Positions 5,389 to 57,341 of a stretch of 64,000 bases of DNA are shown here, piece after piece. This DNA comes from Brachionus plicatilis. Taxonomy: Eukaryota > Rotifera > Eurotatoria > Ploima > Brachionidae. The position numbers and the translations under genes were made by a program. The notes beneath the pieces were generated by a model. It was given only the letters and a program-made list of their open reading frames with translations. It did no database searches and was not told where the DNA came from. Within the stretch, counting starts at the first letter, position 1; every line of letters starts with the position of its first letter. The stretch lies in assembly GCA_010279815.1 (NCBI GenBank), contig QEOQ01000221.1:41088-105087 (forward strand), read 5' to 3'.

Positions 5389-7523
5389 TCAATAGTCCCA
5401 TGCATCCAAGTCTAAGCGAGCAAATTCTCTGCAGCTTACAATCGGATTTGTTTTTGGACATGGCACTAGGAACGGATTTCTTTGGACAAATTTCAAATCT
5501 GTGTTGTCGCACAAAATTCTAGCCATGGAAACTTTTCGGATGGAATCCAATTGTTTCGCACTAAACTTGGTCTTGTCGTCCTGTCCATTTTCATAGTAGA
5601 ATCTGTCTGCGAACTTTAGGTCTCTGTACTGTTTGGCTATGATGCATGCAGCAGTTGGTCCCAAAAATGACCTCTTATTCGGTTTCTCACTCACTAGACC
5701 GATGAACACGTCCACATCATCCGGATGCTTGTAGATTCTGGCCAAATCAGCAATGGTCTCTGGCGGAATTTCTTCAAAATCTTTGAATGATTGCGCTTTT
5801 TTCAATCCGCAAAATTGTCTGTATTTATTGTAGCCTGGCAGTCCGTGGTCTCTTCCTCTGTTTATACTCAATGCGGGCAATGACCATCTCTTGGTGTACG
5901 GGTCCGAAACGATGCCTTCAAATAGATAGTCATTTAAAACCCTGGTCACTTTTGGCTTGGCAGCAGGACAATTGTGGACAAGAGTGCCGAACACACTGTC
6001 ATCAACGTCTTCAACATACGGAATTGAGGTGTTCATGTTCATTTGCATCAATGAAGCTCGTGAATACACTTTTAATTTTTCATTTGCCTTGTAGTAATAG
6101 GGCGACACTCTGCAATGGCATGATCTGAAGGCTGCAGTCACAAAAACATTGGATATTTGGGGATAGAGGCCACAATTGTAGTCATTGAAATAGCCATTTT
6201 TGAGAGGCAACAGGTCTAGATCAGCTGCTAATTTTTTGCCAACAAAAATTGGCAAAAATTGGTCATAAATAATGTTCTGGTATTCGGCGATGACAATTCG
6301 GCGTGCTTCCTGGTAAACAGTATCATCGCACCACTTTGGATTTATCTTTTTTAGAACTCTGGCTATTCTGTTATGCTCTCGGATCCAAATGGAATGAATG
6401 GAAACAGAAATGGAATTGTGCTCTGTTCGGGCATCACCAGTTGCAAAGCATGCTTTGCTTCGTGGGCCGCCCGGGCAGCTCGAGCCAGGTCTTCTTGGCG
6501 GAAGATCGCGTGAGCCATAGCCTCTTGAGGTCTTCAGCAGTCCATTTTTGCACCTAAAATCTCTTGCTTTCTCTTCACTATCTCCATAGACATTGCTTAG
6601 ATCTATCCAATGGGTCAGCAGGTTGTTTTGCTCGCGCGGTCCAAGCGAACACTTGAAATCCCTGACCGAGGCGCTCGACCGAGTCGAGCTTATGCATCTT
6701 TGGTCTTTGTTCACGTGATCTCCTTGGGGAATCGGAATTGAGTTGCATTCTGGGTCTTTGGTGTCACAGGAGCACTTTTTGTAATTGGAAGAAGTGTATG
6801 CTAAATCATGGGCTGTAAACTGGGCAAAATAGAGGAAAAAGCTAGCAATGTTGGACGTGTACTTGGGATACTTGTTGACGTTCATGACCACCCATCTTGG
6901 ATTTGGCAGCTCACAGCCTTTGACCGATTTACTTCTTGGCCTGTCGACTCCGTCATCGTACTCAGGCTCTAGGAGTCGTTTGTACGGGGTCTCTGTTTTG
7001 CCCCACCATGGTGTCTTCAGGTTGTTGCATGAGCCATCCATGGAGCGATAGAGGTACTTTTCGTCGCAGTGAGCAACTTTTACTTGGGGACACCGTGGTG
7101 ATTTGAAGTGAAGCAATTGTAAGTCTTTGTCTTTGCTTTTCAGTTCTTTATAGGCTGTCATCATTATCTTGGCCTGTTGGTTCATGTCAAATGAATTTTT
7201 GGAGGCGTCCAGCCACATCACATGAAAGTTGTTCACGTCATCGTCAGAGTTTAGGATGTCAAAAGTTTGGTTAGGCTTTGGGTGAGCTGACAGTTGGTCA
7301 AATACATCATTGAAATCTTTTTCAGTTGCTTCATCAGGCTCTCTTATGTTGAGCAAACGAGCTTCATCAAAGCTTACATAACTAGATCCTTTTTTATCCA
7401 CTTGATTGGCATGTACCATGCTGCACAAGAGGAAAGCGCTTATTAATACCAAAGTCTAGTTAAATGAAAAAAATCAAATCCTGGTTTTTAGGCAGTTAAA
7501 TGGTAAATTACAGTTTTGGTCAT
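5389..7523 (-). CDS. Secreted animal haem peroxidase (peroxidasin/MPO superfamily)
   Basis: Exon 2 (5389-7455) is one long frame. A 12-nt exon 1 (7512-7523, MTKT) joins it in phase across a 56-bp GT-AG intron and supplies the ATG; without it the frame begins at TTG. The product is 692 residues with a signal peptide (core LVLISAFLLCSMVHA). The peroxidase domain covers roughly residues 125-660. It retains distal Q216 and H220 (QFTAHD), the distal arginine R347 (GDAR), REHNRIA, the LSNVYG calcium-loop region, the proximal H451 (AAFRSCH) and INRGRDHGLPGY. The two acidic residues that ester-link haem in mammalian peroxidases are replaced: D to A219 and E to H350. It probably oxidises substrates outside the cell using H2O2, with haem bound less covalently than in mammals. 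It is a tandem paralogue of the degenerate gene at 594-2896. Confidence 0.88.
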
Positions 7524-15969: not shown

Positions 15970-16516
15970 GGCTCTGTATTATTTTAGCAGACTAAAAAAT
16001 AGCAATATCATTTTAGCTGTTTCATTTTAGCACGGTTAATTTAACAAGATTATAAAATTAGCAATATTGTATAATAAAATTAGCAAAAAAAAAGTAGCAA
16101 ACCCATTCACTTAAATTTAACAAGTTCATTTTAGCAAATATTTTCTATGGCTGAAAATAATAATTTAAATGATCTAATTGATCAATTTAATGATTTACAA
16201 GTTCAATTTGGACTTGTAACATCATCACAGAGAGGTCAACCGCAGTTATCTTTTGATGGATTTTTTTATCAAATTTCAAGTCAAACTAAAGATTCTAAGT
16301 TCAATTGGAGGTGTGTTGAAACTACAATATTTTGCAAGGCTAAATGTTAAATTTTCAAGGTAAAAAATATGCTAAATTAATTGATTTTATTTTTATTTAT
16401 TGCTGATTTTAATAAATAGTATTGCTAATTATAATTTGCTAAATTGAAACAATATTTTTCTTACCTTTGCTAATTTAATTATGCTAAAATGATACGTTCT
16501 AAAATGAATCGCTCCC
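15970..16516 (+). mobile_element. Non-autonomous Mutator-like element with 9-bp target duplication
   Basis: ATTTACTTT is duplicated at 15961-15969 and 16517-16525 around a 547-bp insert. Ends begin GGCTCTG on one side and GGGAGCG on the other, followed on both by ATTTTAG. Removing the insert restores LINE-A coding (FKVN joined to NDHMSDEY). The related LINE at 28850-28880 shows the uninterrupted sequence. The interior is dense in TTTTAGCA/ATTAGCA units and carries a FLYWCH-type ORF. Confidence 0.85.
16147..16350 (+). CDS. FLYWCH-type zinc-finger ORF in the Mutator-like element
   Basis: A 67-residue frame starts MAENNNLNDL. It then carries a FLYWCH-like core: SSQRGQPQLSFDGFFYQ, WRC and a closing C-x-A-x-C. 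FLYWCH domains commonly sit at the N-terminus of Mutator-like transposases, so this is best read as the surviving DNA-binding part of a transposase whose catalytic domain was deleted. The final HxH part of the finger is absent, so binding is uncertain. Confidence 0.6.
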   Translation: MAENNNLNDLIDQFNDLQVQFGLVTSSQRGQPQLSFDGFFYQISSQTKDSKFNWRCVETTIFCKAKC

Positions 16517-16985
16517 ATTTACTTTAAATGATCTTGAGTCTAAGAATGAATTAATCCAATGTATTAGGTAAGAGGGAAGGTTCATTTTTATTAATTTATA
16601 AATAAGACCATCATGCCAAACCCTATCGAAAGCTTTGGAGATATCAAAAAATAGGGAACAAACTTTCTTCTTTCTATTAAATGATTCTACAATTTTTTGA
16701 ATAAGGAAGAAAAGATTATCAGCGGTTCGTCGATTTTTTCTAAAACCTGATTGCTCCTGAATTAGTAATGAGTTTTGTTCTAAAAAACTATATAATCTTG
16801 AGTAGACGATACGTTCTAAAAGTTTTCTTAGACAGCATGTCATACTGATTGGTCGGTAGTTAGCAGGGTCTTGTGTAAAATTTGATTTTTCAGGTATAAT
16901 AGTAATGTTAGCAGATTTCCATGCATTCGGGATTTTACTTTCTCTTAGACTTAAACTAAAACGATACAAAATGTCTTTTAATAAA

Positions 16986-19433
16986 GAAAACGAATTAAAT
17001 TGATTTAGTCCCATATTTTCGGTTTCCAAAGACAATCATTGTGAAGGTCTTAAATAGTCCAAGCTCAAAAGAGGTATTAAAATGGCTTAGATAGTCATCT
17101 TGATCAGGGCTGAAGTTTTTTTCCAAATTTTTAAATGAAAGACAGAAAGCAATTATAAAAAACAAGACAATAATTATCAATTTATTTGCTTTTCTCATTA
17201 TTTTTCCAATAACTCTTATATATTTACCAAAATGGTAGAATTTGTCCATTTTAATAACTAGAACACTGTATGCTAAAAGAATTGTTACAGATATTAAAAT
17301 TAAATTTGTCTGGCTGAAATCCAAAAATAGTGTTAAAAAACCAAGTAAATAAGTTAAGCATTCCATAAAGTTTTTTTTTGAAAAAAAGTATAATTTTTCA
17401 AATTTTGCATTTTTAATTTGAATAATAGAATAAATTATTTGACTGGCTTCAAATAATGAATTGATAATTAAAAAAAATAATGAAATAATCTTTGAATAAC
17501 TTTTCCATGAACTTGAAAGCTGTTTGTATTCCGAAATATAAATTGAATAGAAAACAAGAAACATAAAGTATAATAATAACAATCCATTGTATATAAATGA
17601 TGGCAGTCTTTTCCAGCTTTTGTCAAGAATTGTCTTAAAATTTGCGTCTTCAAAAATCTTTTCGTCAGGATATTCGACTAACTTTTTGAAAAAAATTTCT
17701 ATTGTAGTGGATTTTTTTTCGCTGTCTTGATTATTTTTTATTTTGCCGTCTTGATAATTATCTTTTTCTTTTCTTTTTTCTATGATCGTTGAAATTATGT
17801 CTCCATTATTTAAATAATTTTCTTTGTTTTCCTTGCTATGAAATAAATATTTTATAATCAAAATAATATTTTATTTGATATAAAATCTTAGTAGAACAGT
17901 ATACCCCAATTTAAGAAAAAGGTTTTCAGTTAATTAATTTTTTTTATAATAATTTTTATTTTTAGCATTAATATTGAATTTATTTAATTAAAAACTACCA
18001 AACTTTAATCTACAATGCTAATACTTGAAAATGGTTCTGTTTTCATAATTTTTTAAACAAGTTTTTTACAGATATTTAAATGAGACAATTTGATTATTTC
18101 TTACATAAATGAAATTTAAGTTTTAGAAAAAATTTATCAATCGTGATCAGACATTGTAAAATTATACTAAATTTTTAGTTAAGCCAATGGCTTAAGCAAT
18201 TCAATTCTAAATTTTTTTAGTTGATAATTTTTTTGGGATTTTCTCCATAATTTACTTCTATTTTCTGTCGATTTTCCTGACAACTTAATAAATAAAACTG
18301 GAAAGTTTTTTTCTGGTTTTCAGGGCGAACGATAGATCTAATTACAAAAGAAAAAAATTAATTACTGGCAGTTCATCTTTATTAAATATTTTTTAATTAA
18401 TTTTATTTTGTAAAAGTGAAGATTTTTACTGGATCTGTGGAGAGTCTTTTGAAAAAAAAAATCACATTTAAGAGAAGAATTTATTCTTTATTCTTAAATA
18501 TTAACTAATATTGTTTCCTAAATTTTTTGAATATCTTAAGCCATTGGCTTTACTTAAAAATTAGTTAAATTTACTACGTCTGATTACGATTGATAAAGTT
18601 TCTTTAAGACTAGAATTTCACTTTTGTAAGAAATTATCAAATCGTCTCATTTAAATATCTCAATATTCTGAATTCCGAATCATCAACGGTTGGCTGAAGC
18701 AATGAATGCATATTGAACATAAGAACTTTGATGAATATTAAATAATTAATGACCATAATCATGGTAAATTATTAAATATTTTAGTATCAAAAATGTTAGA
18801 ATAAAATAAAATAAGTTGCTTTTTAGGCATTACTTTCAATTGAGATATTCAAAAGTACAAAACAAATAAAATAAATGTTATTAAAAAAAAATGTTTTTAA
18901 AATTACCTTTTTTTTGGTTCATAATAGATAAAAAATTGTAAAAATTCATCTTTCAATAGATAGAAAATCAAATCAGACCATTCTTTTTCGATGAAAAATT
19001 CATTGTATCTAAGCTCTCTGAAAATAAAATTTCTTGCTTCGTTTACTTCATCTTCTTTAAAATCTTCCAAATATTCTTTAAGAATAATAAAATAACGAAT
19101 AAAAAGATTTTCATTAGGTTTTTCTAGTAAAATGTTCCAACAATTTTCAAAGTTTATTGTTGAAATATATTTTTTACGATTATGAATATAGCTTTTACTA
19201 TTAATAATGAAAGCGTCGAATAATTCGATTTCACCCCTTTCTAGCAAAAATTCAAAGGAATAGCTTGAGAATATGAAAAAATCAAAATTTTTATACATAT
19301 TATTTTTGATTGTATAATCGAATAAATTTTTTAAGTCGAGAATAAAATCAAGTTTGAAAATGTCAAACATTATAATCAAATCTAATACACTATAGTTAAA
19401 CGCAATAAAATTTTCATAAACTAATCTAGTATC
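16986..19433 (-). pseudogene. Fragment of LRR-channel gene A (direct duplicate of 22853-25306)
   Basis: The block is about 99% identical to the intact gene B. It holds the end of the LRR exon (18907-19433), the intron (17836-18906) and the start of the channel exon (16986-17835). A small deletion in the pore region (GATGATCGGGTC reduced to GATTGTC near 17033) shifts the frame. The channel is then cut off by LINE-A at its pore, so TM6 and the tail are missing. Upstream of 19433 the coding sequence switches to unrelated sequence. It cannot encode a channel. Confidence 0.88.
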
Positions 19434-19855
19434 CAAGCTAGTCTGTTTTTTGTCCAACTTACAAAATCTCAATTTATTAGTCATGCATTAAATGAATAAA
19501 TTCATCTTCGGTAAAACATTTTTTTTGTTCATTATAATTAATTAAATTATCGAGGCGGAGTAGGTGACATTTTTTTTCTGAACTTTTGACTTATTAAATA
19601 AACACTTGTTTTTTTACTTTTTTTATAATTGAAAATAACGTAAGTAATTTTCGAAATGATTTTATAACACTGAAACAGTAAAATTATATAAATTTTAGCA
19701 GTTTCAACTCAACATTTTATCTAAATTTTCTTCGGATTAGAGAATTTCGAATCTTCGGATTAAAGAGTGAAAATAACATGTATTTTACATGTTACAGCTT
19801 TTATTTCCTAATTTTTCTTCTGATTTGCGAATTCTTTGGGATATCGAACTTCGGA
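19434..19855. other. Unrecognised AT-rich sequence between gene A fragments
   Basis: It replaces about 310 bp of LRR exon found in gene B. A hairpin-like stretch (ACATGTATTTTACATGT) and TCTTCGGATTA repeats are visible, but no gene. Confidence 0.4.
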
Positions 19856-20287
19856 AATGAAAAAGTTTAGATAAAGATAAAGAATTATTCGAGAAATTAA
19901 ATTTTTCAAGATATTTGAGAACATTAACAAAATCATTATCCAAAGAAGATATTGAATTGTCTGATAAAAAAAGTTTTTTAAGCTTTGTATCTTTTGAAGA
20001 ATTAATATCGAATTTGCGAATTCTATTATTATTTAGATAAAGCTCACTTAAATTTTTAGATCTTTCAAAGATTGATATAGTCTCTTTAATTTCCTTGATT
20101 AAATTACCACTAAAATTAATTATTTCAATACCAATATCATCTTCGAGAAAGAAAGAAAATATTTCTTTAATTAAATTGCTAGAGAAATTAATTCGTTTTA
20201 GTTTTTTTAAATTTTTGAAAAATTTTACATTTATTCTTTTGATCTTGTTTCCACAGAAGTCTAATTCGTTAATAACATTTTCATCTA
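19856..20287 (-). pseudogene. Second LRR fragment of gene A
   Basis: It matches about 25623-26050 of gene B, coding the last 48-residue repeat (here LDFCGNKIKRIN) and the divergent terminal LRRs (LYLNNNRIRKFDIN, LFLSDNSISSLDND). Both ends break into unrelated DNA. It shows that gene A is scrambled rather than merely truncated. Confidence 0.8.
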
Positions 20288-20640
20288 GCTCGTCGTGCTT
20301 TTGTCTGGAACGCCGGATTCCGGAATCCTGGACTACCCTGTATTTTTAATTCAAACTTTTTCTTATAAAATTTATAAGCAAAAAAAAATTTTTTTTTATA
20401 AATTTAAAATTTTAACTAGCCAATAACAATTTAATCTTTTTTAAATGAATTTCTTTTATATGAAATATTGAAATTAAAATAAAATTTGTAATTTTAAATC
20501 AGATTTCGAAACGGTAATTGATATTTTTTTTTAATTTCAAATGAAGAAAACATTTAATACTCATTTTAATTGTTTAATAGAAAAAAAATTAAACATGTAA
20601 CCGGTAAATAATAAACAATGTTTAATCTTTTAAAAGCTTT
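20288..20640. repeat. Dispersed repeat shared with 31785-32100
   Basis: It begins CGTGCTTTTGTCTGGAAC, then GGATTCCGGAATCC, then CCCTGTATTTTTAATTC, and stays highly similar to the 31.8-kb copy for about 300 bp. Reverse-complemented, the start reads CAGGGTAGTCCAGG, like a hAT-type terminus. The repeat resumes at about 21512-21600, so 20640-21511 is a later insertion. Confidence 0.6.
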
Positions 20641-22383: not shown

Positions 22384-25300
22384 TCATTTTTTTTTCGAAT
22401 CTCGATTTTTTATCGTGTGTATTTTTTCTATTTTAATTTTTAATTGATTTAATTCGTTTAAAATTTTAATTGAATTGTCTTCACTTACTTTGAATGTTTT
22501 TTTATTATTTTTTTTGGATTTATTGGCCAAAAATTTCTTGTACTTATTGTATAGATCATAAATTGATAATGTTTTTAATGAAGGTTCGAAGATTTTGTAT
22601 TGAAAAAAATCTTTGGTTGTATTTTGTATCTTTGTCAAAAATTTTTCTAGCGTTTTAATTAATGGGCCAACATTTTCGATCTTTTTTAGCTCTTCTATTT
22701 TTAATATAAAATCAATCTTATTTGAAGAATCATCTTTTTCTGCGCTTTTGAACAATTCATTCACTTCGTCAATTGAAATACCTGTGAAAATGTTCAGCAA
22801 TAAAATTGACATAAAATAAATGAAAAATGCATAAATTAAAAAATTAATAAAAGAAAACGAATTAAATTGATTTAGTCCCATATTTTCGGTTTCCAAAGAC
22901 CCGATCATCATTGTGAAGGTCTTAAATAGTCCAAGCTCAAAAGAGGTATTAAAATGGCTTAGATAGTCATCTTGATCAGGGCTGAAGTTTTTTTCCAAAT
23001 TTTTAAATGAAAGACAGAAAGCAATTATAAAAAACAAGACAATAATTATCAATTTATTTGCTTTTCTCATTATTTTTCCAATAACTCTTATATATTTACC
23101 AAAATGGTAGAATTTGTCCATTTTAATAACTAGAACACTGTATGCTAAAAGAATTGTTACAGATATTAAAATTAAATTTGTCTGGCTGAAATCCAAAAAT
23201 AGTGTTAAAAAACCAAGTAAATAAGTTAAGCATTCCATAAAGTTTTTTTTTGAAAAAAAGTATAATTTTTCAAATTTTGCATTTTTAATTTGAATAATAG
23301 AATAAATTATTTGACTGGCTTCAAATAATGAATTGATAATTAAAAAAAATAATGAAATAATCTTTGAATAACTTTTCCATGAACTTGAAAGCTGTTTGTA
23401 TTTCGAAATATAAATTGAATAGAAAACAAGAAACATAAAGTATAATAATAACAATCCATTGTATATAAATGATGGCAGTCTTTTCCAGCTTTTGTCAAGA
23501 ATTGTCTTAAAATTTGCGTCTTCAAAAATCTTTTCGTCAGGATATTCGACTAACTTTTTGAAAAAAATTTCTATTGTAGTGGATTTTTTTTCGCTGTCTT
23601 GATTATTTTTTATTTTGCCGTCTTGATAATTATCTTTTTCTTTTCTTTTTTCTATGATCGTTGAAATTATGTCTCCATTATTTAAATAATTTTCTTTGTT
23701 TTCCTTGCTATGAAATAAATATTTTATAATCAAAATAATATTTTATTTGATATAAAATCTTAGTAGAACAGTATACCCCAATTTAAGAAAAAGGTTTTCA
23801 GTTAATTAATTTTTTTTATAATAATTTTTATTTTTAGCATTAATATTGAATTTATTTAATTAAAAACTACCAAACTTTAATCTACAATGCTAATACTTGA
23901 AAATGGTTCTGTTTTCATAATTTTTTAAACAAGTTTTTTACAGATATTTAAATGAGACAATTTGATTATTTCTTACATAAATGAAATTTAAGTTTTAGAA
24001 AAAATTTATCAATCGTGATCAGACATTGTAAAATTATACTAAATTTTTAGTTAAGCCAATGGCTTAAGCAATTCAATTCTAAATTTTTTTAGTTGATAAT
24101 TTTTTTGGGATTTTCTCCATAATTTACTTCTATTTTCTGTCGATTTTCCTGACAACTTAATAAATAAAACTGGAAAGTTTTTTTCTGGTTTTCAGGGCGA
24201 ACGATAGATCTAATTACAAAAGAAAAAAATTAATTACTGGCAGTTCATCTTTATTAAATATTTTTTAATTAATTTTATTTTGTAAAAGTGAAGATTTTTA
24301 CTGGATCTGTGGAGAGTCTTTTGAAAAAAAAAAATCACATTTTAAAGAAGAATTTATTCTTTATTCTTAAATATTAACAAATATTGTTTCCTAAATTTTT
24401 TGAATATCTTAAGCCATTGGCTTTACTTAAAAATTAGTTAAATTTACTACGTCTGATTACGATTGATAAAGTTTCTTTAAGACTAGAATTTCACTTTTGT
24501 AAGAAATTATCAAATCGTCTCATTTAAATATCTCAATATTCTGAATTCCGAATCGTCAACGGTTGGCTGAAGCAATGAATGCATATTGAACATAAGAACT
24601 TTGATGAATATTAAATAATTAATGACCATAATCATGGTAAATTATTAAATATTTTAGTATCAAAAATGTTAGAATAAAATAAAATAAGTTGCTTTTTAGG
24701 CATTACTTTCAATTGAGATATTCAAAAGTACAAAACAAATAAAATAAATGTTATTAAAAAAAAATGTTTTTAAAATTACCTTTTTTTTGGTTCATAATAG
24801 ATAAAAAATTGTAAAAATTCATCTTTCAATAGATAGAAAATCAAATCAGACCATTCTTTTTCGATGAAAAATTCATTGTATCTAAGCTCTCTGAAAATAA
24901 AATTTCTAGCTTCGTTTACTTCATCTTCTTTAAAATCTTCCAAATATTCTTTAAGAATAATAAAATAACGAATAAAAAGATTTTCATTAGGTTTTTCTAG
25001 TAAAATGTTCCAACAATTTTCAAAGTTTATTGTTGAAATATATTTTTTACGATTATGAATATAGCTTTTACTATTAATAATGAAAGCGTCGAATAATTCG
25101 ATTTCACCCCTTTCTAGCAAAAATTCAAAGGAATAGCTTGAGAATATGAAAAAATCAAAATTTTTATACATATTATTTTTGATTGTATAATCGAATAAAT
25201 TTTTTAAGTCGAGAATAAAATCAAGTTTGAAAATGTCAAACATTATAATCAAATCTAATACACTATAGTTAAACGCAATAAAATTTTCATAAACTAATCT

Positions 25301-27607
25301 AGTATCTCTTTTTTTAAAGGAGAGATTATTTAAAATAAAAATAAAAAAACTAAACTCAAAAGAACGATTTCGCAAAAGATATTCTCCAGATATATCATAC
25401 AAATCATGTCTTTTAAAAATTTCTTTATACTTCTTATTACTTAAAATTATTGGATCAGTATCAATTTTTTCTTTTTTAAAATTTTTTTCCCTTTTATCTT
25501 TTTCATATTTAATAAAGATTTCATCAAACTTAAATGGATCAATGATATTTAGGACATCTTGGACCAGAAAGTTAAATTTAAACTCAACTGACAAATCACG
25601 GTAGAAATCAAAATTAAAATTAAAATGAAAAAGTTTAGATAAAGATAAAGAATTATTCGAGAAATTAAATTTTTCAAGATATTTGAGAACATTAAAAAAA
25701 TCATTATCCAAAGAAGATATTGAATTGTCTGATAAAAAAAGTTTTTTAAGCTTTGTATCTTTTAAAGAATTAATATCGAATTTGCGAATTCTATTATTAT
25801 TTAGATAAAGCTCACTTAAATTTTTAGATCTTTCAAAGATTGATACAGTCTCTTTAATTTCCTTGATTAAATTACCACTAAAATTAATTATTTCAATACC
25901 AATATCATCTTCGAGAAAGAAAGAAAATATTTCTTTAATGAAATTGCTAGAAAAATTAATTCGTTTTAGTTTTTTGAAATTTTTGAAAAATTTTTCATTA
26001 ATACGTTTGATCTTGTTTCCACTGAATTCTAATTCGTTAATAACATTTTTATCTAGCCCAATAAATTCGGGTAGTTCCTCGATTAAATTGTTAGAGAAAT
26101 TAATTCGTTCTAGTTGTTTAAAATTTTTGAAAAATTTTTCATTTATTCCTTTGATCTTGTTTCCACTGAAGTCTAATTCTTTAGTAACATTTTCATCTAG
26201 CATAATAAATTCGGGTAATTCTTCAATTAAATTGTTGGAAAAATTAATCGAAATAGTTTGGTTAAAATTTGTGAAAAAATCTTTATTTATTCTTTTTATC
26301 CTGTTTCCACTAAAGTCCAATAAAATAAATGAAAATCTATAAATGATATTAATTAAGGGGAATTCTTCGATTAAATTGTTGGAGAAATTAATATAAAATG
26401 AATGTTTAAAATTTATGAAAAAATTTCCATTTATACTTTTGATCCTGTTTCCACTAAAGTCTAATTCTTCAATAACATTTTCATCTAGCATAATAAATTC
26501 GGGTAATTCGTCGATTAAATTGTTGGAGAAATTAATTCGTTCTAGTTGTTTAAAATTTTTGAAAAATTTTTCATTTATTCGTTTGACCTTGTTTCCACTA
26601 AAGTCTAATTCTTCAATAACATTTTCATCTAGCATAATAAATTCGGGTAATTCGTCGATTAAATTGTTGGAGAAATTAATTCGTTCTAGTTGTTTAAAAT
26701 TTTTGAAAAATTTTTCATTTATTCGTTTGATCTTGTTTCCACTAAAGTCTAATTCGTTTATAACATTTTTATCTAGCCCAATAAATTCGGGTAGTTCCTC
26801 GATTAAATTGTTGGAGAAATTAATTCGTTCTAGTTGTTTAAAATTTTTGAAAAATTTTTCATTTATTCCTTTGATCTTGTTTCCACTGAAGTCTAATTCG
26901 TAATAACGGTTTATATCTAGCAAAATAAATTCGGGTAGTTCCTCGATTAAATTGTTAGAGAAATTAATTCGTTCTAGTTCTTCAAAATTTTTGAAAAATT
27001 TTTCATTTATTCGTTTGATCTTGTTTCCACTAAAGTCTAATTCGTTAATAACATTTTCATCTAGCATAATAAATTCGGGTAGTTCCTCGATTAAATTAAT
27101 AGAGAAATTAATTCGTCTTGAGTATTTAAAATTTTCGAAAATTTTTCCATTTATTCCTTTGATCTTGTTTCCACTGAAGTCTAATTCTTCAATAACATTT
27201 TCATCTAGCATAATAAATTCGGGTAGTTCCTCGATTAAATTGTTAGAGAAATTAATTCGTTTTAGTTGTTTAAAATTTTTGAAAAATTTTTCATTTATTC
27301 GTTTGATCTTGTTTCCACTAAAGTCTAATTCTTCAATAGCATTTTCATCTAGCATAATAAATTCGGGTAATTCGTCGATTAAATTGTTAGAGAAATTAAT
27401 TCGTTTTAGTTTTTTTAAATTTTTGAAAAATTTTACATTTAATCTTTTGATCCGTTTTCCACTGAAGACTAATTCATCAATAACATTATCATCTAGCCCA
27501 TTAAATGAGGGTAATTCCTCGATTAAATTGTCAGAGAAATTTTCGACAAATATTTTTATTTTTTTTCTGCCTGAGCTAGTTACTTCAAATTCTTGTCTGA
27601 ATTCCAT
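22384..27607 (-). CDS. Leucine-rich-repeat protein with C-terminal TRPA-like ion channel (gene B, intact)
   Basis: Two long frames join in phase across a 1,072-bp intron. Exon 1 (24780-27607) ends AAAAAAAG|GTAATT, where reading through gives an immediate stop. Exon 2 (22384-23707) follows TTATTTCATAG. The joined codon is AG+C, giving 1,383 residues. Residues about 22-560 are eleven 48-residue units, each of two LRRs (FSNNLIEELP and LDFSGNKIKRIN); divergent LRRs follow to about 660. Residues 660-940 are helical and unrecognised. The end is a six-TM channel: TM1 1023-1044, TM2 1058-1083, TM3 1099-1116, TM4 1119-1139, TM5 1159-1177, pore helix about 1200-1218 (FKTFTMMIGSLE), TM6 1229-1254 (LLLNIFTGISIDEV). 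The pore and post-TM6 pattern is most like TRPA channels, with LRRs in place of ankyrin repeats. There is no signal peptide, so the LRRs are probably cytosolic. Ion choice and trigger are unknown. Confidence 0.8.
23708..24779 (-). other. Intron of gene B (1,072 bp)
   Basis: GT-AG bounded and AT-rich. It contains TAAGCCAATGGCTTAA and its partner near 24410, forming a small internal inverted repeat. The equivalent intron of gene C is 2,058 bp because of inserted sequence. Confidence 0.7.
25930..27540 (-). repeat. 144-bp tandem coding repeat (11 units)
   Basis: The LRR units are repeated at DNA level with period 144 bp. Neighbours often differ at only a few bases, which suggests recent unequal exchange or gene conversion. 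The antisense strand stays open over several units purely because of this repetition. Confidence 0.9.
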
Positions 27608-28535
27608 TATTTTTCCATTCTTTTTTTTTTAATTTTACTTTATTTAAAAATTAAATATTAAATTTAAATTTTTTATGCTTAATAGTTATTCTTTTTATAT
27701 TGTTAATTTGCATGACAATTTTTTCTTGTTGCTCAGTAGCCATTTTATTTTTTATTCTTGCAATATTTAAATTTATTTATTCAATTTTAATTTTATTTGC
27801 ATGAATTGTTTATTTGCATGACAATTTTTTCTTGTTGCTTAGTAGCCCTTTTATTTTTTATTCTTGAAATATTTAAATTTATTTATTCAATTTTAATTTT
27901 ATTTGCATGAATTGTTTATTTGCATGACAATTTTTTCTTGTTGCTTAGTAGCCCTTTTATTTTTTATTCTTGAAATATTTAAATTTATTTTTACAATTTT
28001 AATTTTATTTGCATGAATTGGTTATTTTCATGACAATTTTTTCTTGTTGCTTAGTAGCCCTTTTATTTTTTATTCTTGAAATATTTAAATTTATTTTTAC
28101 AATTTTAATTTTATTTGCATGAATTGTTTATTTGCATGACAATTTTTTCTTGTTGCTTAGTAGCCCTTTTATTTTTTATTCTTGAAATATTTAAATTTAT
28201 TTATTCAATTTTAATTTTAATTTTTAATCTTGCTTTATTAATTTTATGTATTTTTAATAGATCGATCGATCAATTGCTTTAAAATTAAGAATGACAAATG
28301 GCTCTAAAAAAGTCTTGTTTACTTCAAAAGAACAATGGATAATAGAAACGAATAATGGGATTTTATTCAGATAAGGGCTGGTCAAAAATTTTCACTCATA
28401 ATTGATGAGATGATTCAAGAATGAAGCAAAGATGGAAATTTTTATTTTTTCATGGGTCATTACTAAATATTTTTGAAAGAATGTGATGAAAATTTTCTGG
28501 TTTAAATCTAAAAGCATTTTTCATGAATAAAAAAT
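27608..28535. repeat. 5' flank of gene B with five 106-bp tandem repeats
   Basis: The word CATGACAATTTTTTCTTG recurs at 27711, 27817, 27923, 28029 and 28135, an exact 106-bp period. Two inverted copies precede gene C at about 36875-37075. A conserved ATCGATCGATC block lies at 28261-28271. The array sits where the promoter of gene B should be. Confidence 0.85.
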
Positions 28536-36884: not shown

Positions 36885-37156
36885 ATAAATTTAAATATTT
36901 CAAGAATAAAAAATAAAAGGGCTACTAAGCAACAAGAAAAATTGTCATGCAAATAAACAATTCATGCAAATAAAATTAAAATTGAATAAATAAATTTAAA
37001 TATTTCAAGAATAAAAAATAAAAGGACTACTAAGCAACAAGAAAAAATTGACATGCAAATTAACAATATAAAAAGAATAACTATAAAACATAAAAAATTT
37101 AAATTTAATATTTAAATTTAATATAAAGTAAAATTTTGAAAAAAGAATAGAAAAAA
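36885..37156. repeat. 5' flank of gene C with two 106-bp repeats
   Basis: Two units containing TACTAAGCAACAAGAAAAA are the reverse complement of the gene B array. There are only two copies against five, an array-size difference between paralogues. Confidence 0.8.
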
Positions 37157-40129
37157 ATGAAATTCAGATATGAATTTGAAGAAAAAATAGATTATTTAAG
37201 CGCAAAGAGAATAAAAAAAATTAAAATATTTGTCGAAAATTTCTCTGACAATTTAATCGAAGAATTACCCGTATTTATTGAGCAAGATGAAAATGTAATT
37301 GATGAATTAGACTTCAGTGGAAATAGGATCAAAAAATATGAAGAATTTTTCAAAAATTTCAAAAAATTTCAATTCTTTGATTTCTCTTACAATTCAATCG
37401 AAGAATTGCCCTTATTTAAACTTGAAAATAAAAATGTTATTTACGAATTAGACTTCAGTGGAAGTAGGATCAAAAGAATAAATGAAAATTTTTTCTTATA
37501 TTTCGCGAAGTTAAATCGAATTAATTTCTCTAACAATTTAATCGAAGAATTGCCCTTATTTAAACTGGAAGATAAAAATGATATTAACGAATTAGACTTC
37601 AGTGGAAATAGGATCAAAAGAATAAATGAAGAATTATTCAAAAATTTCAAAAAACTTCGACGAATTGATTTCTCTAACAATTTAATCGAAGAATAACCCG
37701 TATTTATTAAGCAAGATGAAAATGTTATTGATGAATTAGACTTCAGTGGAAATAGGATCAAAAGAATAAATGAAGAATTTTTCAAAAATTTCAAAAAACT
37801 TCGACGAATTGATTTCTCTAACAATTTAATCGAAGAATTACCCGTATTTATTAAGCAAGAAGAAAATGTTATTGATGAATTAGACTTCAGTGGAAACAGT
37901 ATCAAAAGAATAAATGAAGAATTTTTCAATAATTTCAAACAACTAGAACGAATTAATTTCTCTAACAATTCAATCGAAGAATTGCCCTTATTTAAACTGG
38001 AAGATAAAAATGATATTAAAGAATTAGACTTCAGTGGAAATAAGATCAAAAGTATAAATGAAGAATTTTTCAATAATTTCAAACAACTAGAACGTATTAA
38101 TTTCTCTAACAATTCAATCGAAGAATTGCCCTTATTTAAACTGGAAGATAAAAATGATATTAACGAATTAGACTTCAGATCAAAAGTATAAATGAAGAAT
38201 TTTTCAAAAATTTCAAAAAACTTCGAAGAATTGATTTCTCTAACAATTTAATCCAAGAATTGCCCTTATTTGAACTGAAATATGAAAATGTTATTGATGA
38301 ATTAGACTTCAGTGGAAATAGGATCAAAAGAATAAATGATATTTTTTTCAAAAATTACAAACAACTTCGACGAATTGATTTCTCTAACAATTTAATCGAA
38401 GAATTGCCCTTATTTATACTGGAATCTATAAATGATATTAACGAATTAGACTTCAGTGGAAACAAGATCAAAAGAATAAATGAAGAATTTTTCAATAATT
38501 TCAAACAACTAGAACGAATTAATTTCTCTTACAATTCAATCGAAGAATTGCCCTTATTTAAACTGGAAAATAAAAATGTTATTAACGAATTAGACTTCAG
38601 TGGAAACAAGATCAAAAGAATAAATGAAGAATTTTTCAAAAATTTCAAACAACTTAAACGAATTAATTTCTCAAATAATTTTATTAAAGAAATAATTTCT
38701 TTCGTTCTCGACGATGATATTGGTATTGAAATAATTAATTTTAGTGGTAATTCAATCAAGGAAATTAAAAAGACTGTATCAATCTTAGAAAAATCTAAAA
38801 ATTTAAGTGAGCTTTATCTAAATAATAATAGAATTCGCAAATTCGATATTAATTCTCTAAAAGATACAAAGCTTAAAAAACTTTTTTTATCAGACAATTC
38901 AATATCTTCTTTGGATAATGATTTTTTTACTGTTCTACAATATCTTGAAAAGTTTAATTTCTCTAATAATTCTTTAACTTTATCTAAATTTTTTCATTTT
39001 AATTTTAATTTTGATTTCTACCGTGTTTTGTCAGTTGAGTTTAAATTTAATTTTTTGGTCCAAGATTTCCTAAATATCATTGATCCATTTAAGTTTGATG
39101 AAATCTTTATTGAAAATGAAAAAAAAAAAAATGATAAAAAAAAAAATGAAAAAATTGATACTGATCCAATAATTTTAAGTAATAAGAAGTATAAAGAAAT
39201 TTTAAAAAGACATGATATGCTTGATTTATCAAAAGAATATCTCTTTCGAAATCGTTCATATGAGTTTAGTTTTTTTATTTTTCTTTTAAATAATCTCTCC
39301 TTTAAAAAAAGAGATATTAGATTATTTTATGAAAATTTTATTACGTTTAACTATAGTGTATTGGATTTGATTTTAATGTTTGACGTTTTCAAACTAAATT
39401 TTATTCTCGACCTAAAAAATCTATTCGATGATACAATTCGAAATAATGCGTTTATAAATTTTGATTTTATCATATTCTCAAGCGATTCCTTTGAATTTTT
39501 GCTAGAAAGGGGTGAAATTGAATTACTCGACGCTTTCATAATAAATGGTGAAAGCTATATTCATAATCGTAAAAATTATATTTCAAAAATAAACTTTGAA
39601 AAATGTTGGAACATTTTATTAGAAAAAGATAATGAAAATCTTTTTATTGGTTATTTTAAAATTCTTAAAGAATATTTGAAAGATTTTAAAAATGATCAAG
39701 TAAACAAAACAAGAAATTTCGTATTCGGAAAGCATAAATCTCATGAATTTTTCTTCAAAAAAAAATGGTTTAATTTGATTTTCTATCTAATGGAAAATGA
39801 ATTTTTACAGCATCTTATTTTTTATGAACCAAAAACAAGGTAATTTTAAAAAAATAATTTAAAACGATACTTACATTTTTAATTTGTTTTTTATCTTTGG
39901 ATATCTTAACTTAAAATAATTCGAAATAATTAAGATATTTTATTTTATTCAAACATATTTAATACTTGAATATTTTTTAATACTCAAAGATTATTGTCAT
40001 TAATCATTTAATATTTATCAAAGCTATTATTTCAATACTTTCATTGCTTCAGCAAACCTTTGATAATTCGAATTTCGGAATTATCAGATATTTAAATGAG
40101 ACGATATGATTATTTAAAGTTATTTTTTT

Positions 40130-41390: not shown

Positions 41391-43209
41391 GTCTTGATAT
41401 TAAAGACATCTTTTACCTAATTTGAATTAATTATGGTGTATGATGTTGTAATATTTAAAAATTTACAACAAATTTACGATGAAAGAGATATTTTTTTTTT
41501 CAAACATAAAAATTTTAAATTCGCTAAAAAAAGGGTAAGGAAAAAATAAAAGGTGTCAGTAGGCTGTTCTTTGGAATTTTGAAAAAAAAAATCACTTAAG
41601 TAATGAAGAAATTTTTTTAAATTACGAGTACTGAAATTTAATAATCAAATCGTTTCATTTAGATATCTGTTTAACGAATTATGAAAACAGAACAAGTTTC
41701 AAGCATTAAGATATAAGATAAGGGTTAGGCAGTTTTTAATTAAAAATAATTCAATTTATATTAAAATAAAAATTATTAAATTTATTAAAAATTAATAACT
41801 AATGAACTGGAAACGGTTTTTAAATGAGGTTTCCAATTCGGTTGATATTATTTATCAAATAAAATAATATTTTAATTTTAAAATACTTATTTCATAGCAA
41901 GGATGACAAAGAAAATAATACAAATAATGGAGACACATTTTCATTGATCATAGGAAAAAGAAAAGAATTAGATAATTATCGAGACGGCAAAATAGATAAT
42001 AATCAAAACAGCAACAAAGAATCCACTACAATAGAAATTTTTTTCAAAAATTTAGTGGAATATCCTAACGATATGATTTTTGAAGACTCCAATTTTAAAA
42101 CAATACTTGACAAAAGCTGGAAAAGACTGCCATCTTTTATATACAATGGATTGTTGTTATTATACGTTATGTTTCTTGTTTTCTATTCAATTTATATTTC
42201 GGAATACAAACAGCTTTCAAGTTCATGGAAAAGTTATTCAAAGATTATTTCATTAATTTTTTTAATAATCAATTCATTATTTGAAGCGAGTCAAATAATT
42301 TATTCTATTATTCAAATTAAAAATGGAAAATTTGAAAAATTATACTTTTTTTCAAAAAAAAATTTCATGGAATGCTTAACTTATTTACTTGGATTTTTAA
42401 CAATATTTTTGGATTACAGCCAGACAAATTTAATTTTAATATCTATAACAATTATTTTATCATACAGTGTTCTAGTTATTAAAATGGACAAATTCTACCA
42501 TTTTGGTAAATATATAAGAGTTATTGGAAAAATATTGAGAAAAGCAAATAAATTGATAATTATTGTCATTTTATTTTTAATTGCTTTCTGTCTTTCATTT
42601 AAGAATTTGGAAAAAAACTTCAGCTCTGATCAAGATGACTTCATGAGCCATTTTAATACTTCTTATGAGCTTGGATTTTTTAAGACCTTCACAATGATGA
42701 TCGGGTCTCTGGAAACCGATAATATGGAACTAGATAAATTAAATTGGTTTTCTTTTATTAATTTTTTTATCTATGGATTTTTCATTTATTTTATGTCACT
42801 TTTATTGCTGAACATTTTCACAGGTATTTCAATTGACGAAGTGAATGAATTGTTCAAAAGCGCAGAAAAAGATGATTCTTCAAATAAGATTGATTATATA
42901 TTAAAAATAGAAGAGTTAAAAAAAATCGAAAAAGTTGGCCCATTAATTAAAACACTAGAAAATTTTTTAACAACGATACAAAATGCTACAAAAGATTTTT
43001 TTCAATATAAAATCTTCGAGCCTTTATTAAAAATATTATCAATTTATGATCTGTATGAAAAATACAAGAAATTTTTGGCCGATAAATCAAAAAAAAATAA
43101 TGAAGTAAGATTTGAAGTAAGTGAAGACAATACAATTAAAATTTTAAACGAATTTAATCAATTAAAAATTAAAATGGAAAAAATGCACGAAAAATTAATC
43201 GAGATTTGA

Positions 43210-44625: not shown

Positions 44626-47600
44626 ATGCCCTCAGCTTCCTCAATCGTTTCAAATTCACTTTTCGCCTCACCGAACTCGTCAAACGAGCCCTCAGCTTCC
44701 TCTTTCGTTTCAAATTTATTCTCTAGTTTATCTACACCTAATTTAAACATAAATTGTTTATACGCAAATGCATGCTTACTCAACAACGATAAACTAGCTG
44801 AGCTTACTCTCAGAACTTCTACAGAAAAGCCAGCTATTGTTTTTATCACAGAAACTTGGTTTAGCGATAACTCCATATCTCTTCTTCCGAATTATCATGT
44901 TTACCAAACTGATAGATCGTCCCATGGTGGAGGAGTTACTATATACGTACGAGACGACATTAATTCTTCTAACATTACCATTCCTAGTCTACAACAAAGC
45001 CTGAAATGTGTCTACTCCGAACAAAGCTGGTGCATGATAAAAATAGGTCTCGATACGGTAATTTTGGACTGCATTTACCGGCCTCCCCCGAGCAACAACT
45101 ACTCTCAGAATTCTCTAATAGATAATGAAATTAAACGGACCATAAAAGCAGTGAAATCAGCCAATGATACCCAGAAGTGCAGCTCTATTCTTATCACAGG
45201 TGACTTCAATTATCCATCGATCAAATGGCACAAAGACGGCTCCCTCACAGTTTTTGGCAGCGATGATAGCCCAGCTAACGCCTTTGTTGACATGTTAAAT
45301 GACGAATCACTAAGCCAAATCGTCACCTCTCCAACATTTCGCAAAGCAAAAGGCAATACAACGAATACGCTCGACCTAATAATAACTGACTCGAGAAATA
45401 GACTAAGCTGTTTGTCAGAAAGCTCTCCTCTTGGCTCGAGCGAACAGGCTCATATTAGCCTTTCTTTCAAAATAGAAATTGCTAACGAAATAAAAGAACA
45501 GTTTTTTAGCAACAAATATGCGTATAAACGTGGCGATTTCGGTCAAATGCAGCTCGAACTAGATAGAAAAAACTGGGGAGAATTATTTGAAAACAAAAAC
45601 ATTGAACAATGCTATGACGAGTTCTTAAATACGTACAATTCTCTTTGTGACAAATTTATACCCAAATTCAAACAAAAAATTAATAAACGTAAGCCTTCGT
45701 GGATTATTCCAGAGCTCGCAAAACTTATAAGAAAAAAAAAGTCGCTCTGGCATCAACTTCGGGTTTCCGGAGGCAAAAACCGAAGCCTCGAGCAAAGCTA
45801 CACCTCAGTAAAAAGGGAAATTGAAAAGAAATCAAGGGACTCTATCATATTATTCGAAAAAAGTCTAGCTGATGATAAATTAAACCCGAAAAGACTATAC
45901 GCATACGTTAACGAGAAGCAGAAAGTAAAAATGCGTATAACGTCGATCACAAACGATTCCGGTGTATCCACGACCAATAGAAATGAAATCGCTGATACGC
46001 TCAATAAACACTCAGCTCCGTATTCGTCAACGAAGAGAGCTCAAGTGAAATGCCAATTTTTAATCAAAGGACCAATGAAAAAATAAGCGACACATCTTTT
46101 GCTCCATCGAACATATTAAAAATATTAAAAAAGTTAGACATATACAAATCAATAGGCACTGACGGCGTCCATCCTCACGTACTCAAAAGCTGCGCCAACG
46201 CTTGGGCTCTCCCGTTAAGCATGATCTATAAGCTCTCTCTTGACTCTGGTGCAGTTCCCAAAGCTTGGCGTGAAGCAAACGTAACTCCGTTATTCAAAAA
46301 AGGAAACAACACTGACCTATCCAACTACAGACCAATCTCTTTAACTTCAGTTGTATGTAAAATAATGGAAAAAATTCTAAAAACGACAATAATGACTCAT
46401 TTAACGAAATTTAAGCAACTAGCAAATGAACAACACGGCTTCATCAAAAACAAAGCATGCATTACAAATCTACTCGAAACTCTTGATTTTACCACGAAAG
46501 CTTTGTCTAATAAAAAATCAGTCGACATTCTTTTCCTCGACTTTGCAAAAGCCTTCGACAAAGTACTGCACAAACGTCTAATTCATAAACTGGCCAATTA
46601 CGGAATAAGCGGGCCTCTATTAAGCTGGATCGAATCCTTTTTGACAAGCCGACGCCAAAGAGTTGTTTTAGGAGAGCACCAATCGAGCTGGAGCGCTGTC
46701 AGGAGCGGGGTACCTCAAGGATCTGTTATTGGGCCGATTCTTTTCATATTATATATTAACGATCTCCCAGGCTTATTAGAAAACAAATGTAAAATGTACG
46801 CAGACGACACAAAAATAATCAGCGAAATTGACCACATGTTTGCACCGACAGACAACTTAAGGCTGCAACGAGACATCGACAAAATAACAGAGTGGACGAA
46901 CACTTGGTTAATGCGCCTAAATATTGAAAAATGTAAAATAATGCATACTGGTAAACGTAACCCTCAATTCAAATACTCAATGCAAAAATACGAATCACAA
47001 ACAGAACGTATCCAAATAACTAAAACGGAATGCGAACGAGACCTCGGTGTACTAATCTCTAACGATATGAAACCTAGCTGCCAATCCAACAAAGCTGCTT
47101 CGAAAGCTAACAGCATTTTATCAATGTTAAAAAATACATTTGTATATAAAGACGCAGCTCTGTGGAAAAAATTGTACACTGGGTTTGTTAGACCCCATCT
47201 TGAATTTGCTGTCGCTGCTTGGAATCCATACTTAACTAAAGATATAAATTCATTGGAAAAAGCTCAGCAAAGGGCAACAAAAATCCCTCATATGCTTAAA
47301 CAATTCGATTATCCTACGAGATGCACTAATCTAGGCCTTACTACACTATCAACCAGAAGACTCAGGGGTGACCTGATTCAAAAGTTTAAACTCGAAAACG
47401 GTCTAGAAATTATCGACTGGCACATACCACCGATCTGTTCAATGCCACGTGGTGGACACAGAGGTCACTTCAGAAGAGAAATCATCCGTTTTTGTAACCC
47501 GCGACACAACTTTTTCAATAACAGAATCGTAAACGAATGGAACAAGATACCAGACGATATAATAAAATCTAAAACAGTCAACGAATTTAAAAACAAGCTG

Positions 47601-47663
47601 GACACGTACTGGAAAAACTGCTATAGGACGTCATCTACTGATGACGTGCTCCGCATGGTTTAG
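44626..47663 (+). pseudogene. CR1-like ORF2 (APE endonuclease and reverse transcriptase), one frameshift
   Basis: The first frame (44626-46086) holds the endonuclease: LNINCLYANA, ITETWF, GGGVTIYV, YRPPPS, ITGDFNYP. The final SDH motif reads S-E-Q (PLGSSEQAHIS), a change in both catalytic-loop residues. The second frame (to 47663) holds the RT: NYRPISLTS, LFLDFAKAFDKV, GVPQGSVIGP, catalytic MYADDTK, and the C-terminal FVRPHLEFAVAAWNP. The frames meet near 46010-46050: restoring one T in AAACACTCAGC would give the conserved HFSSVF motif, so a 1-base deletion is likely. The same deletion occurs in the 54-kb copy. Confidence 0.85.
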
Positions 47664-48041
47664 GCCATGTCGCAGTTTAAATACTACTACTACTACTACT
47701 AAATGGATTAACTTATCTAGTGTAATTTCATAGAGTTAATTTTTAAGGCTTTTTATTTTCTGATTTATTTTAACTACCAACAAATAAGTTTTTTCTATTA
47801 CTTTTATCTAAATTTCTAATTTTTGACCTGAAATCCGTAAACTGCGACCTATGAAACCCAAATTTTATTTCTTTACGTAGAACAATTAATTCATAGAATA
47901 ATTTTTATTGAAAAATATAATTGAATAAAATTTAGAAAAAAAATAATATATCATTTATTCTAGTTTTTTGTTTCATAGAAAAATTAATTTATAGTTTTTA
48001 GAAAAATCTAATTGAATAAAATCAGGAAAAAAATCAAAAAT

Positions 48042-48447
48042 ATTTTCATTATATTAAATTTTCAAGTGTAAAAATAATTTGTTCAAAACACTTTAAAACA
48101 TCCTTATGATTCTGAAAGAGGAGAAAAAGTTCTGCTTGGCAAATTGTTTTTCTAAAGGTCTGGACATATGAAAACCCTAAAAAAACCGCTAAAGACCGGA
48201 AAAGTAGAGGTTTAGACCGGATTTTTCAAAGCACCCTGAATATTTATTTTTAAAAATGTTTTTTAGTGAAAGAAACAAAATTTTTAAATACAGTTTTTAT
48301 AGGGTTTTCACATGTCCAGACCTTTTGAAAAATAATTTGCCAAGCGGAACTTTTTCTCCTTTATCAGAATCAAAAGCGCTTTGCAGAGTGTTTTAAAGTG
48401 TTTTGTACAAAATATATTTACACTTGAAAAATTAATATAATGAAAAT
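48042..48447. mobile_element. Foldback MITE (about 145-bp arms)
   Basis: The arms start ATTTTCATTATATT and end AATATAATGAAAAT and contain AAAGGTCTGGACATAT and its partner ACATGTCCAGACCTTTT. No ORF. A second copy lies at 56533-56938 as part of the 3.3-kb repeat. Confidence 0.7.
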
Positions 48448-48454
48448 TTTTTTT

Positions 48455-48741
48455 CAGACTTGTGCGTAAGTCAAAAAATAAAGTCATTTTTAAGTCATTT
48501 TTTGGTTAAGTCAAAGATTTGACTTGACTTAAGATTTTTTTTTTTAAAGTTAAGTCATTTGACTTGACTTGACTTAGAATGACTTGAATTTCAAAAAATT
48601 TAATTTGTGTTTTCGAAGGAATTTGATAAAAAAATCTTCTAATTAATTTTCTAATATTTACAACATTAAAATTTAAAGAATCATAATTAGGATTTGATGC
48701 TTGTTACCCGTTTTATATTGACTTTCCCAAAAATAATTCAA
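48455..48741. mobile_element. MITE cut by the LINE2 insertion (left part)
   Basis: It begins CAGACTTGTGCGTAAGTC like the complete element at 56946-57341 but stops at 48741, where LINE2 begins. The missing right end follows the second direct repeat. Confidence 0.75.
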
Positions 48742-48855
48742 TTCAATCGAAGAGACTTGTGCCAATCCTATAATAATATAGGTCGATTGAATCCATTTAT
48801 TCAAAAATAAATAAATATAAAATTGATAAAAATAAGTAGTAATATTAGTTTTAAT

Positions 48856-51828: not shown

Positions 51829-51876
51829 AAAATAATTTGATTTTATTTTCTGATCTGAGATTTGGTAATTTGCTAG

Positions 51877-56154: not shown

Positions 56155-56532
56155 GCCATGTCGCAGTTTAAATACTACTACTACTACTACTAAATGGATT
56201 AACTTATCTAGTGTAATTTCATAGAGTTAATTTTTAAGGCTTTTTATTTTCTGATTTATTTTAACTACCAACAAATAAGTTTTTTCTATTACTTTTATCT
56301 AAATTTCTAATTTTTGACCTGAAATCCGTAAACTGCGACCTATGAAACCCAAATTTTATTTCTTTACGTAGAACAATTAATTCATAGAATAATTTTTATT
56401 GAAAAATATAATTGAATAAAATTTAGAAAAAAAATAATATATCATTTATTCTAGTTTTTTGTTTCATAGAAAAATTAATTTATAGTTTTTAGAAAAATCT
56501 AATTGAATAAAATCAGGAAAAAAATCAAAAAT

Positions 56533-56938
56533 ATTTTCATTATATTAAATTTTCAAGTGTAAAAATAATTTGTTCAAAACACTTTAAAACATCCTTATGA
56601 TTCTGAAAGAGGAGAAAAAGTTCTGCTTGGCAAATTGTTTTTCTAAAGGTCTGGACATATGAAAACCCTAAAAAAACCGCTAAAGACCGGAAAAGTAGAG
56701 GTTTAGACCGGATTTTTCAAAGCACCCTGAATATTTATTTTTAAAAATGTTTTTTAGTGAAAGAAACAAAATTTTTAAATACAGTTTTTATAGGGTTTTC
56801 ACATGTCCAGACCTTTTGAAAAATAATTTGCCAAGCGGAACTTTTTCTCCTTTATCAGAATCAAAAGCGCTTTGCAGAGTGTTTTAAAGTGTTTTGTACA
56901 AAATATATTTACACTTGAAAAATTAATATAATGAAAAT
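56533..56938. mobile_element. Foldback MITE, second copy
   Basis: Identical in layout to 48042-48447; duplicated with the 3.3-kb repeat. Confidence 0.7.
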
Positions 56939-56945
56939 TTTTTTT

Positions 56946-57341
56946 CAGACTTGTGCGTAAGTCAAAAAATAAAGTCATTTTTAAGTCATTTTTTGGTTAA
57001 GTCAAAGATTTGACTTGACTTAAGATTTTTTTTTTTAAAGTTAAGTCATTTGACTTGACTTGACTTAGAATGACTTGAATTTCAAAAAATTTAATTTGTG
57101 TTTTCGAAGGAATTTGATAAAAAAATCTTCTAATTAATTTTCTAATATTTACAACATTAAAATTTAAAGAATCATAATTAGGATTGGATGCTTGTTACCC
57201 GTTTTATATTGACTTTCCCAAAAAAAATTCAAGTCATTATAAGTCAAGTCAAGTCAAATGACTTAACTTTAAAAAAAAAAATCTTAAGTCAAGTCCGTGA
57301 CTTGACTTTGACTTTGACTTAGTGACTTACGCACAAGTCTG
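56946..57341. mobile_element. Complete MITE with about 110-bp inverted termini
   Basis: It starts CAGACTTGTGCGTAAGTC and ends GACTTACGCACAAGTCTG. The ends are full of TGACTTGACTT repeats. It is bordered on both sides by T runs, so an 8-bp duplication of T would be invisible. The CAG...CTG ends suit a hAT-type origin. No ORF. Confidence 0.75.

Follow-up and report, generated by a model that had tools for sequence, protein, structure and literature searches.

The stretch of DNA analyzed here, a window of 64,000 nucleotides from the rotifer Brachionus plicatilis (C65:41088-105087), carries on its reverse strand a two-exon gene, gene B, whose predicted product joins an array of leucine-rich repeats (LRRs) to a six-transmembrane pore. 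By anatomy and lineage, gene B probably encodes a cation channel of ankyrin-type TRPA ancestry that exchanged most of its cytosolic ankyrin array for an LRR solenoid. The window was compared with the genome of the same species (102.9 Mb in 173 contigs were searched) and with predicted proteins from other sources. The parts of gene B were as follows.

24776-27628, reverse strand: LRR open frame, 950 amino acids, from the list of open reading frames (ORFs)
22384-23742, reverse strand: channel open frame, 452 amino acids, from the same ORF list
24780..27607, reverse strand: exon 1, with the ATG at 27607, the LRR array, a helical linker, and the donor
25598..27544, reverse strand: LRR array, which covers residues 22 to about 670 with about 27 LRRs, most of them 24 residues long
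24780..25597, reverse strand: linker, residues about 671-942, probably left over from the last ankyrin unit and the post-ankyrin segment, for which the evidence comes mostly from relatives
23708..24779, reverse strand: phase-2 intron of 1,072 bases
22384..23707, reverse strand: exon 2, with the pre-S1 region, S1-S6, the pore, the TRP-helix region, the C-terminal tail, and the stop
22897..22902, reverse strand: residues 1212-1213, the G-S of the filter, in place of the G-E of Drosophila TRPA1

The donor after position 24780 reads AAAAAG before the cut and GTAATTTT after it, while the acceptor before position 23707 is TATTTATTTCATAG (in full TTTCATAG), followed by CAAGG. The two are joined in phase 2 (AG+C), and the spliced product comprises 1,383 amino acids and a stop, with the exon junction at residues 942/943. 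A sequence-only reading of this DNA had proposed that the LRR frame runs into a GT donor, that the channel frame follows an acceptor, and that the phases match in gene B and in a second local copy, gene C. These sites were confirmed, and the same donor, acceptor, and phase were also found in a third copy, gene A. In the Pfam scan, gene B matched LRR_8 (6.2e-58) and Ion_trans (PF00520; 8.2e-9, profile positions 6-238 of 241), the latter with 35.5 bits and hence above the curated cut-off of 25. The LRR units start at intervals of 24 residues between 22 and 574 (24 units, two patterns pooled), with additional starts at 600, 623, and 647, giving about 27 LRRs in place of the 11 double units (22 LRRs) counted earlier. 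All membrane segments of the pore fall within residues 1023-1247. Just 5' of the gene B start, a direct repeat of 419 bases was observed (window 27699-28223, 96.9% identity, shift of about 106 bases).

The channel exon of gene B had 18 matches within the same genome. In four of the paralogues the LRRs, linker, and pore occur in a single uninterrupted frame: L021 (1,091 amino acids), L022 (1,049), L023 (1,808 in the fetched piece, 2,202 in the genome search), and L024 (956). Pfam LRRs were identified in all four, while the pore was assigned by alignment with gene B. Gene B and L021 share 27.6% identity over residues 327-1377 of gene B, which span the junction (4e-91 in blastp, a value inflated by LRR similarity as the search was run without low-complexity or composition correction), and L021 and L022 align with each other over residues 410-991 (4.6e-52). 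These intronless paralogues, together with the single-frame predicted proteins from other sources described below, support gene B as a single LRR-plus-TRPA-like polypeptide independently of splice prediction, as the sequence-only reading had supposed, with transcription itself presumed. Some of the domain evidence speaks less clearly for it: the Ion_trans match was below the cut-off of 25 bits in L021 (23.0 bits) and L022 (19.7 bits), and the Pfam scan listed no Ion_trans at E 0.1 in L023, L024, and the predicted protein P0001, so that the pore assignment in L023 and L024 rests on similarity to gene B. A related channel on another contig (L026 on C64) has a 674-amino-acid frame, and an LRR frame was not seen within the 8.5 kb fetched.

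Searches beyond this genome identified 19 relatives (P0001-P0019): one with the gene B pore as query (P0001), 13 with the L021 pore, and 11, of which five were new, with the linker and pore of P0012. In the precomputed domain lists, LRR families were present in 17 of the 19 and ankyrin families in none, while Ion_trans was listed for only eight, which tempers the channel assignment. The two relatives without LRRs, P0006 and P0018, have the shortest frames. One relative, P0004, is an unnamed protein product of Brachionus calyciflorus with LRRs, linker, and a TRPA-type pore in one predicted protein, sharing 45% identity with L021 in the searched region. Its record, whose visible name gives no hint of a channel, also includes an extra hydrophobic N-terminal part and is possibly a gene-model fusion. 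By sequence comparison, the LRR-channel family is genome-wide, with a relative in another Brachionus species.

The pore of gene B was supported as TRPA-type by sequence profile and by predicted fold. Drosophila TRPA1 ranked first in the single-sequence pore search (7.8e-8) and also led with the pore profile (6.6e-27), compared with TRPV3 (1.3e-11) and human TRPA1 (2e-11). The pre-S1 region matched TRPA as well (HMMER stretch 31-76 on 7ykr 729-774) and could be aligned with two ankyrin-bearing genes of the same genome, L025 and L034. The AF2 model of P0012 showed an LRR solenoid, linker helices, S1-S6, a pore helix, a TRP helix, and a long C-terminal helix; such long C-terminal helices, partly of low confidence, were present in both models of relatives. 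When a relative's predicted fold was searched with Foldseek, the first 11 chains were all TRPA1. The six-transmembrane fold of the family is supported by these models, and the resemblance of the C-terminal half to TRP-type channels that the sequence-only reading had anticipated was found. Two points count against so specific an assignment: VIA-align gave a tie between TRPV1 and TRPA1, and the models were made on relatives instead of gene B, from 14 and 16 sequences, with pTM of 0.60 and 0.56. Compared with the TRPA1 structures (human 6pqp and 9moe, Drosophila 7ykr and 7yks), the family shares the six-transmembrane pore, a pre-S1 region with its tryptophan, the TRP-helix region, and a predicted fold that matches from the last ankyrins to the end of the channel. 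It differs in having LRRs where TRPA1 has ankyrins, of which none were detected, and S, G, N, or Q at the filter position where Drosophila TRPA1 has E.

The long ankyrin array of TRPA was not observed: Pfam listed no Ank family in gene B, the open exons of gene C, L021-L024, L030, or P0001. Ankyrin-type TRPA-like genes do occur in the same genome, namely L025 (Ank_2, 5.3e-56) and L034 (ankyrins judged by eye). Both align with the LRR family in the pore and pre-S1, and L025 also at its last ankyrin unit, while they differ in their ankyrin array and GE filter. For example, residues 184-578 of P0006 aligned with residues 449-810 of L025 (blastp, 1.6e-26), reaching into the last ankyrin unit, and residues 539-928 of L021 also matched L025 (5.5e-17). 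A profile of the linker gave a weak but collinear match to L025 at its last ankyrin unit and the post-ankyrin segment (hhalign). The linker is probably an ankyrin remnant. As the alignments reach the last ankyrin unit, the LRRs appear to be grafted onto a truncated ankyrin base, and the best reading of the sequences is an ankyrin array that was truncated and had LRRs placed in front. The earlier suggestion that LRRs replace the ankyrins of TRPA thus holds for most of the array but probably not for the whole region.

Several results pull the other way on this origin. The linker-ankyrin profile match had a modest score of 31.4 with a probability of 16.7%, although this exceeded the top scores from five column shuffles (13.6-21.9), and a Pfam scan for ankyrins in four linkers at E 10 found none. 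In addition, the LRR rows and ankyrin rows were not separated by the tree, which was constructed without P0014 and P0015-P0019. The two ankyrin genes grouped together (100/99), but with a weak backbone and a midpoint root the tree neither shows nor excludes a single origin of the LRR swap. Some long rows (C64, C2b, C59, P0001, P0005, and the C45 pair with its stem) may have been wrongly placed.

The selectivity filter was compared among 31 family rows, which included P0006 and P0018 despite their lack of in-frame LRRs and excluded P0014, which ends within the channel domain. An acidic filter residue, regarded as defining for TRPA, was absent from 30 of the 31 rows: the position is occupied by S in 11, G in eight, N in six, Q in five, and D only in P0018. 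In contrast, L025, L034, and Drosophila TRPA1 (7ykr) have E. The preceding glycine was absent in P0009, P0012, and P0013. As both the ankyrin array and the filter acid are missing, the family was classified as an LRR-TRPA variant and not as a member of TRPA, although it probably works like a TRPA channel. The equivalent acid of human TRPA1 is the basis for expecting reduced calcium selectivity upon its loss. By this analogy, a lower calcium selectivity of the LRR channels is predicted, and the filter change thus provides a testable prediction of ion selectivity.

A mechanism may be proposed from the TRPA fold. The channel would be a tetramer held together by S1-S6 and the helical C-terminal tail, with the LRR solenoids hanging in the cytosol as a sensing arm. 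A ligand or partner bound to the LRRs would exert a pull on pre-S1 and the ankyrin-remnant linker, and this pull would be passed to the TRP helix and the S6 gate, in the way the ankyrin arm of TRPA1 is thought to act on them. Transcription of gene B, its tetramer, gating through the LRRs, and a stimulus are all presumed in this scheme. The sensor role of the LRR arm, taken as a step of its own, is moderately likely. A less likely though still plausible role is that of a tether, in which the arm would connect the channel to cytoskeleton or membrane partners as a mechanical spring or trafficking handle without binding a ligand. The array length varies widely, with about 27 LRRs in gene B and a first frame of 2,141 amino acids in C25, and the long ankyrin arrays of other TRP channels have been discussed as springs; nothing in the analysis distinguishes such a tether from a sensor.

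More speculatively, and with rather little confidence, rotifers may have evolved diversifying cytosolic LRR receptor-channels, in which a partner or foreign molecule on the variable LRR array directly opens the cation pore, built on a TRPA chassis with a retuned filter. Plant immune receptors can form ion channels, and an LRR receptor-channel would, if real, be a one-protein receptor and channel in their spirit. The family also amounts to a domain swap carried out by nature on a sensory channel. As ankyrin-armed and LRR-armed relatives share a genome, it can be asked whether the stimulus is set by the N-terminal arm, and how much of the ankyrin base, and which part, is indispensable for gating.

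The three copies in the window that the sequence-only reading had described as a local family are indeed present, but only gene B is intact (1/3), and the family extends throughout the genome. The other two were characterized as follows.

16499..20345, reverse strand: gene A, a recent partial copy of gene B, 99.5% identical over 2,463 bases, with broken frames
41863..43209, forward strand: gene C channel exon, 448 amino acids, 84% identical to gene B, open
37151..39843, forward strand: LRR-linker exon of gene C, interrupted in its present form by an in-frame stop and a frame change

The breaks of gene A are located near 16995-17035 and between 19487 and 19785. Gene C is an inverted copy with two long blocks 84% and 88% identical to gene B, disrupted by the in-frame stop at 37694-37696 and the frame change near 38164-38191. 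The dN/dS was calculated between gene B and two paralogues. With C119, a near relative that is located on a different contig and open in both frames, it was 0.445 for the channel exon, 0.477 for exon 1, and 0.443 for the final 290 codons of that exon; with C97 the channel exon gave 0.333 and the final 290 codons of exon 1 gave 0.471. These values support an average constraint on both halves of the gene B protein. Their weight is reduced in two ways: the linker of the broken gene C also had a dN/dS of 0.55-0.64, and a paralogue dN/dS is an average, from which constraint on gene B itself does not follow. Gene B may instead be decaying or silent, a recent duplicate heading for loss within an otherwise real family. 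This is improbable. In its favor, genes A and C are both broken, gene A is nearly identical to gene B, and retroelement frames are located nearby; against it, gene B remains open across 1,383 codons with a dN/dS of 0.44-0.48 against C119. Both decay and a tethering role are compatible with the anatomy proposed for gene B.

Additional evidence for the joined polypeptide came from the two-exon loci of the genome. In nine of them, gene B included, the break falls at the same place and the LRR frame runs into a phase-2 GT, which is more than chance would give; the frames stop because the letters of the donor itself spell a stop codon (GTAA in eight and GTGA in one). A pyrimidine-rich acceptor in the same register was clear by eye in six of the nine, while in C8, C25, and C2 a phase-compatible AG was present among several AGs. 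The nine loci are not independent, as they are paralogues and include the near-copies A and B. Searching with the gene B linker identified nine loci, all of which (9/9) have a same-strand channel exon downstream. A tenth two-exon locus (L033) was kept outside this count, as its LRR frame extends into the S1 region, and its differing break position is at odds with the common junction. At the C50 locus, which is one of the nine, a distance of about 12.4 kb separates the two frames, and retroelement-like frames occupy part of it (L037, C50:604500-614400). That gene B is instead two neighboring genes, one for a separate LRR protein and one for a short six-transmembrane channel, read together by chance, is very improbable. 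The frames are parted by a 1-kb intron, but the phase-2 donors recur at nine loci, and no Met codon was found upstream of S1 in exon 2. The two-gene reading was rejected on the one-frame paralogues and single-frame relatives, together with the homology that runs across the junction.

The LRRs of the gene B channel are most likely cytosolic, as suggested by the lack of a hydrophobic N-terminus, the lack of LRR caps, and a glycosylation sequon in the S5-pore turret. Within the first 50 residues, hydrophobicity peaked below 1 in 14 of 15 proteins, P0004 being the exception (P0006, P0009, and P0014 were left out); Pfam scans of the window genes and paralogues found no LRR capping families; and the sequon was present in 24 of the 31 family rows. 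Some doubt is left by hydrophobic stretches that hint at an extra membrane segment, one in the gene B linker (residues 783-801, KD 1.77) and one in the linker of P0015 (2.24). The pre-S1 landmark finder was often misplaced inside or after S1, and its hydrophobicity values were used for P0015 only.

Known channels with LRRs differ from this arrangement. LRRC8/VRAC also carries cytosolic LRRs on a channel, but it has four transmembrane segments, a different fold, and LRRs that follow the pore; it was rejected as a model, since the LRRs here precede the Ion_trans domain (Pfam) and the P0012 model has six membrane helices. Polycystin-1 (PKD1) has 11 transmembrane segments. The LRR family resembles it in carrying LRRs on a TRPP-related channel protein, but in the available part of one report the LRRs of polycystin-1 belong to a very large extracellular N-terminal domain with many other modules (PMC12799467). 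A polycystin-1 (PKD1/TRPP) type channel with extracellular LRRs is very improbable and was rejected, as LRRs placed outside after a signal peptide are contradicted by 14 of the 15 N-termini (P0004 excepted), Pfam scans found neither LRR caps nor PC1-type domains, and the pore is nearest to TRPA1.

Among the open-access papers listed in literature searches (20 of 124 in one of them), with subscription papers and preprints outside the scope, no description was found of a TRPA-type channel with cytosolic LRRs. An LRR gene moved by a Penelope element has been described in Adineta, and the available part of that report does not mention "ion channel" or "TRP" (PMC3846280).

Further features were observed around the gene cluster and elsewhere in the genome. 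Other Ion_trans matches occur in tight clusters (C38:812830-828313, C10:1358400-1370464, and C1:4688716-4699858), which suggests tandem channel families. In the window, two 3.3-kb stretches (45444-48745 and 53935-57236) that contain a reverse-transcriptase (RT) frame are 99.8% identical and are thus very recent element copies. Between them, on the reverse strand at 48856-53682, a Ulp1-type peptidase frame (Peptidase_C48) precedes, by one stop codon, an in-frame endonuclease-RT frame, and the two perhaps form a single element with an unusual first ORF. Animal haem peroxidase frames were also located near the LRR-channel cluster, at 1086-2441 and 5389-7455 on the reverse strand.

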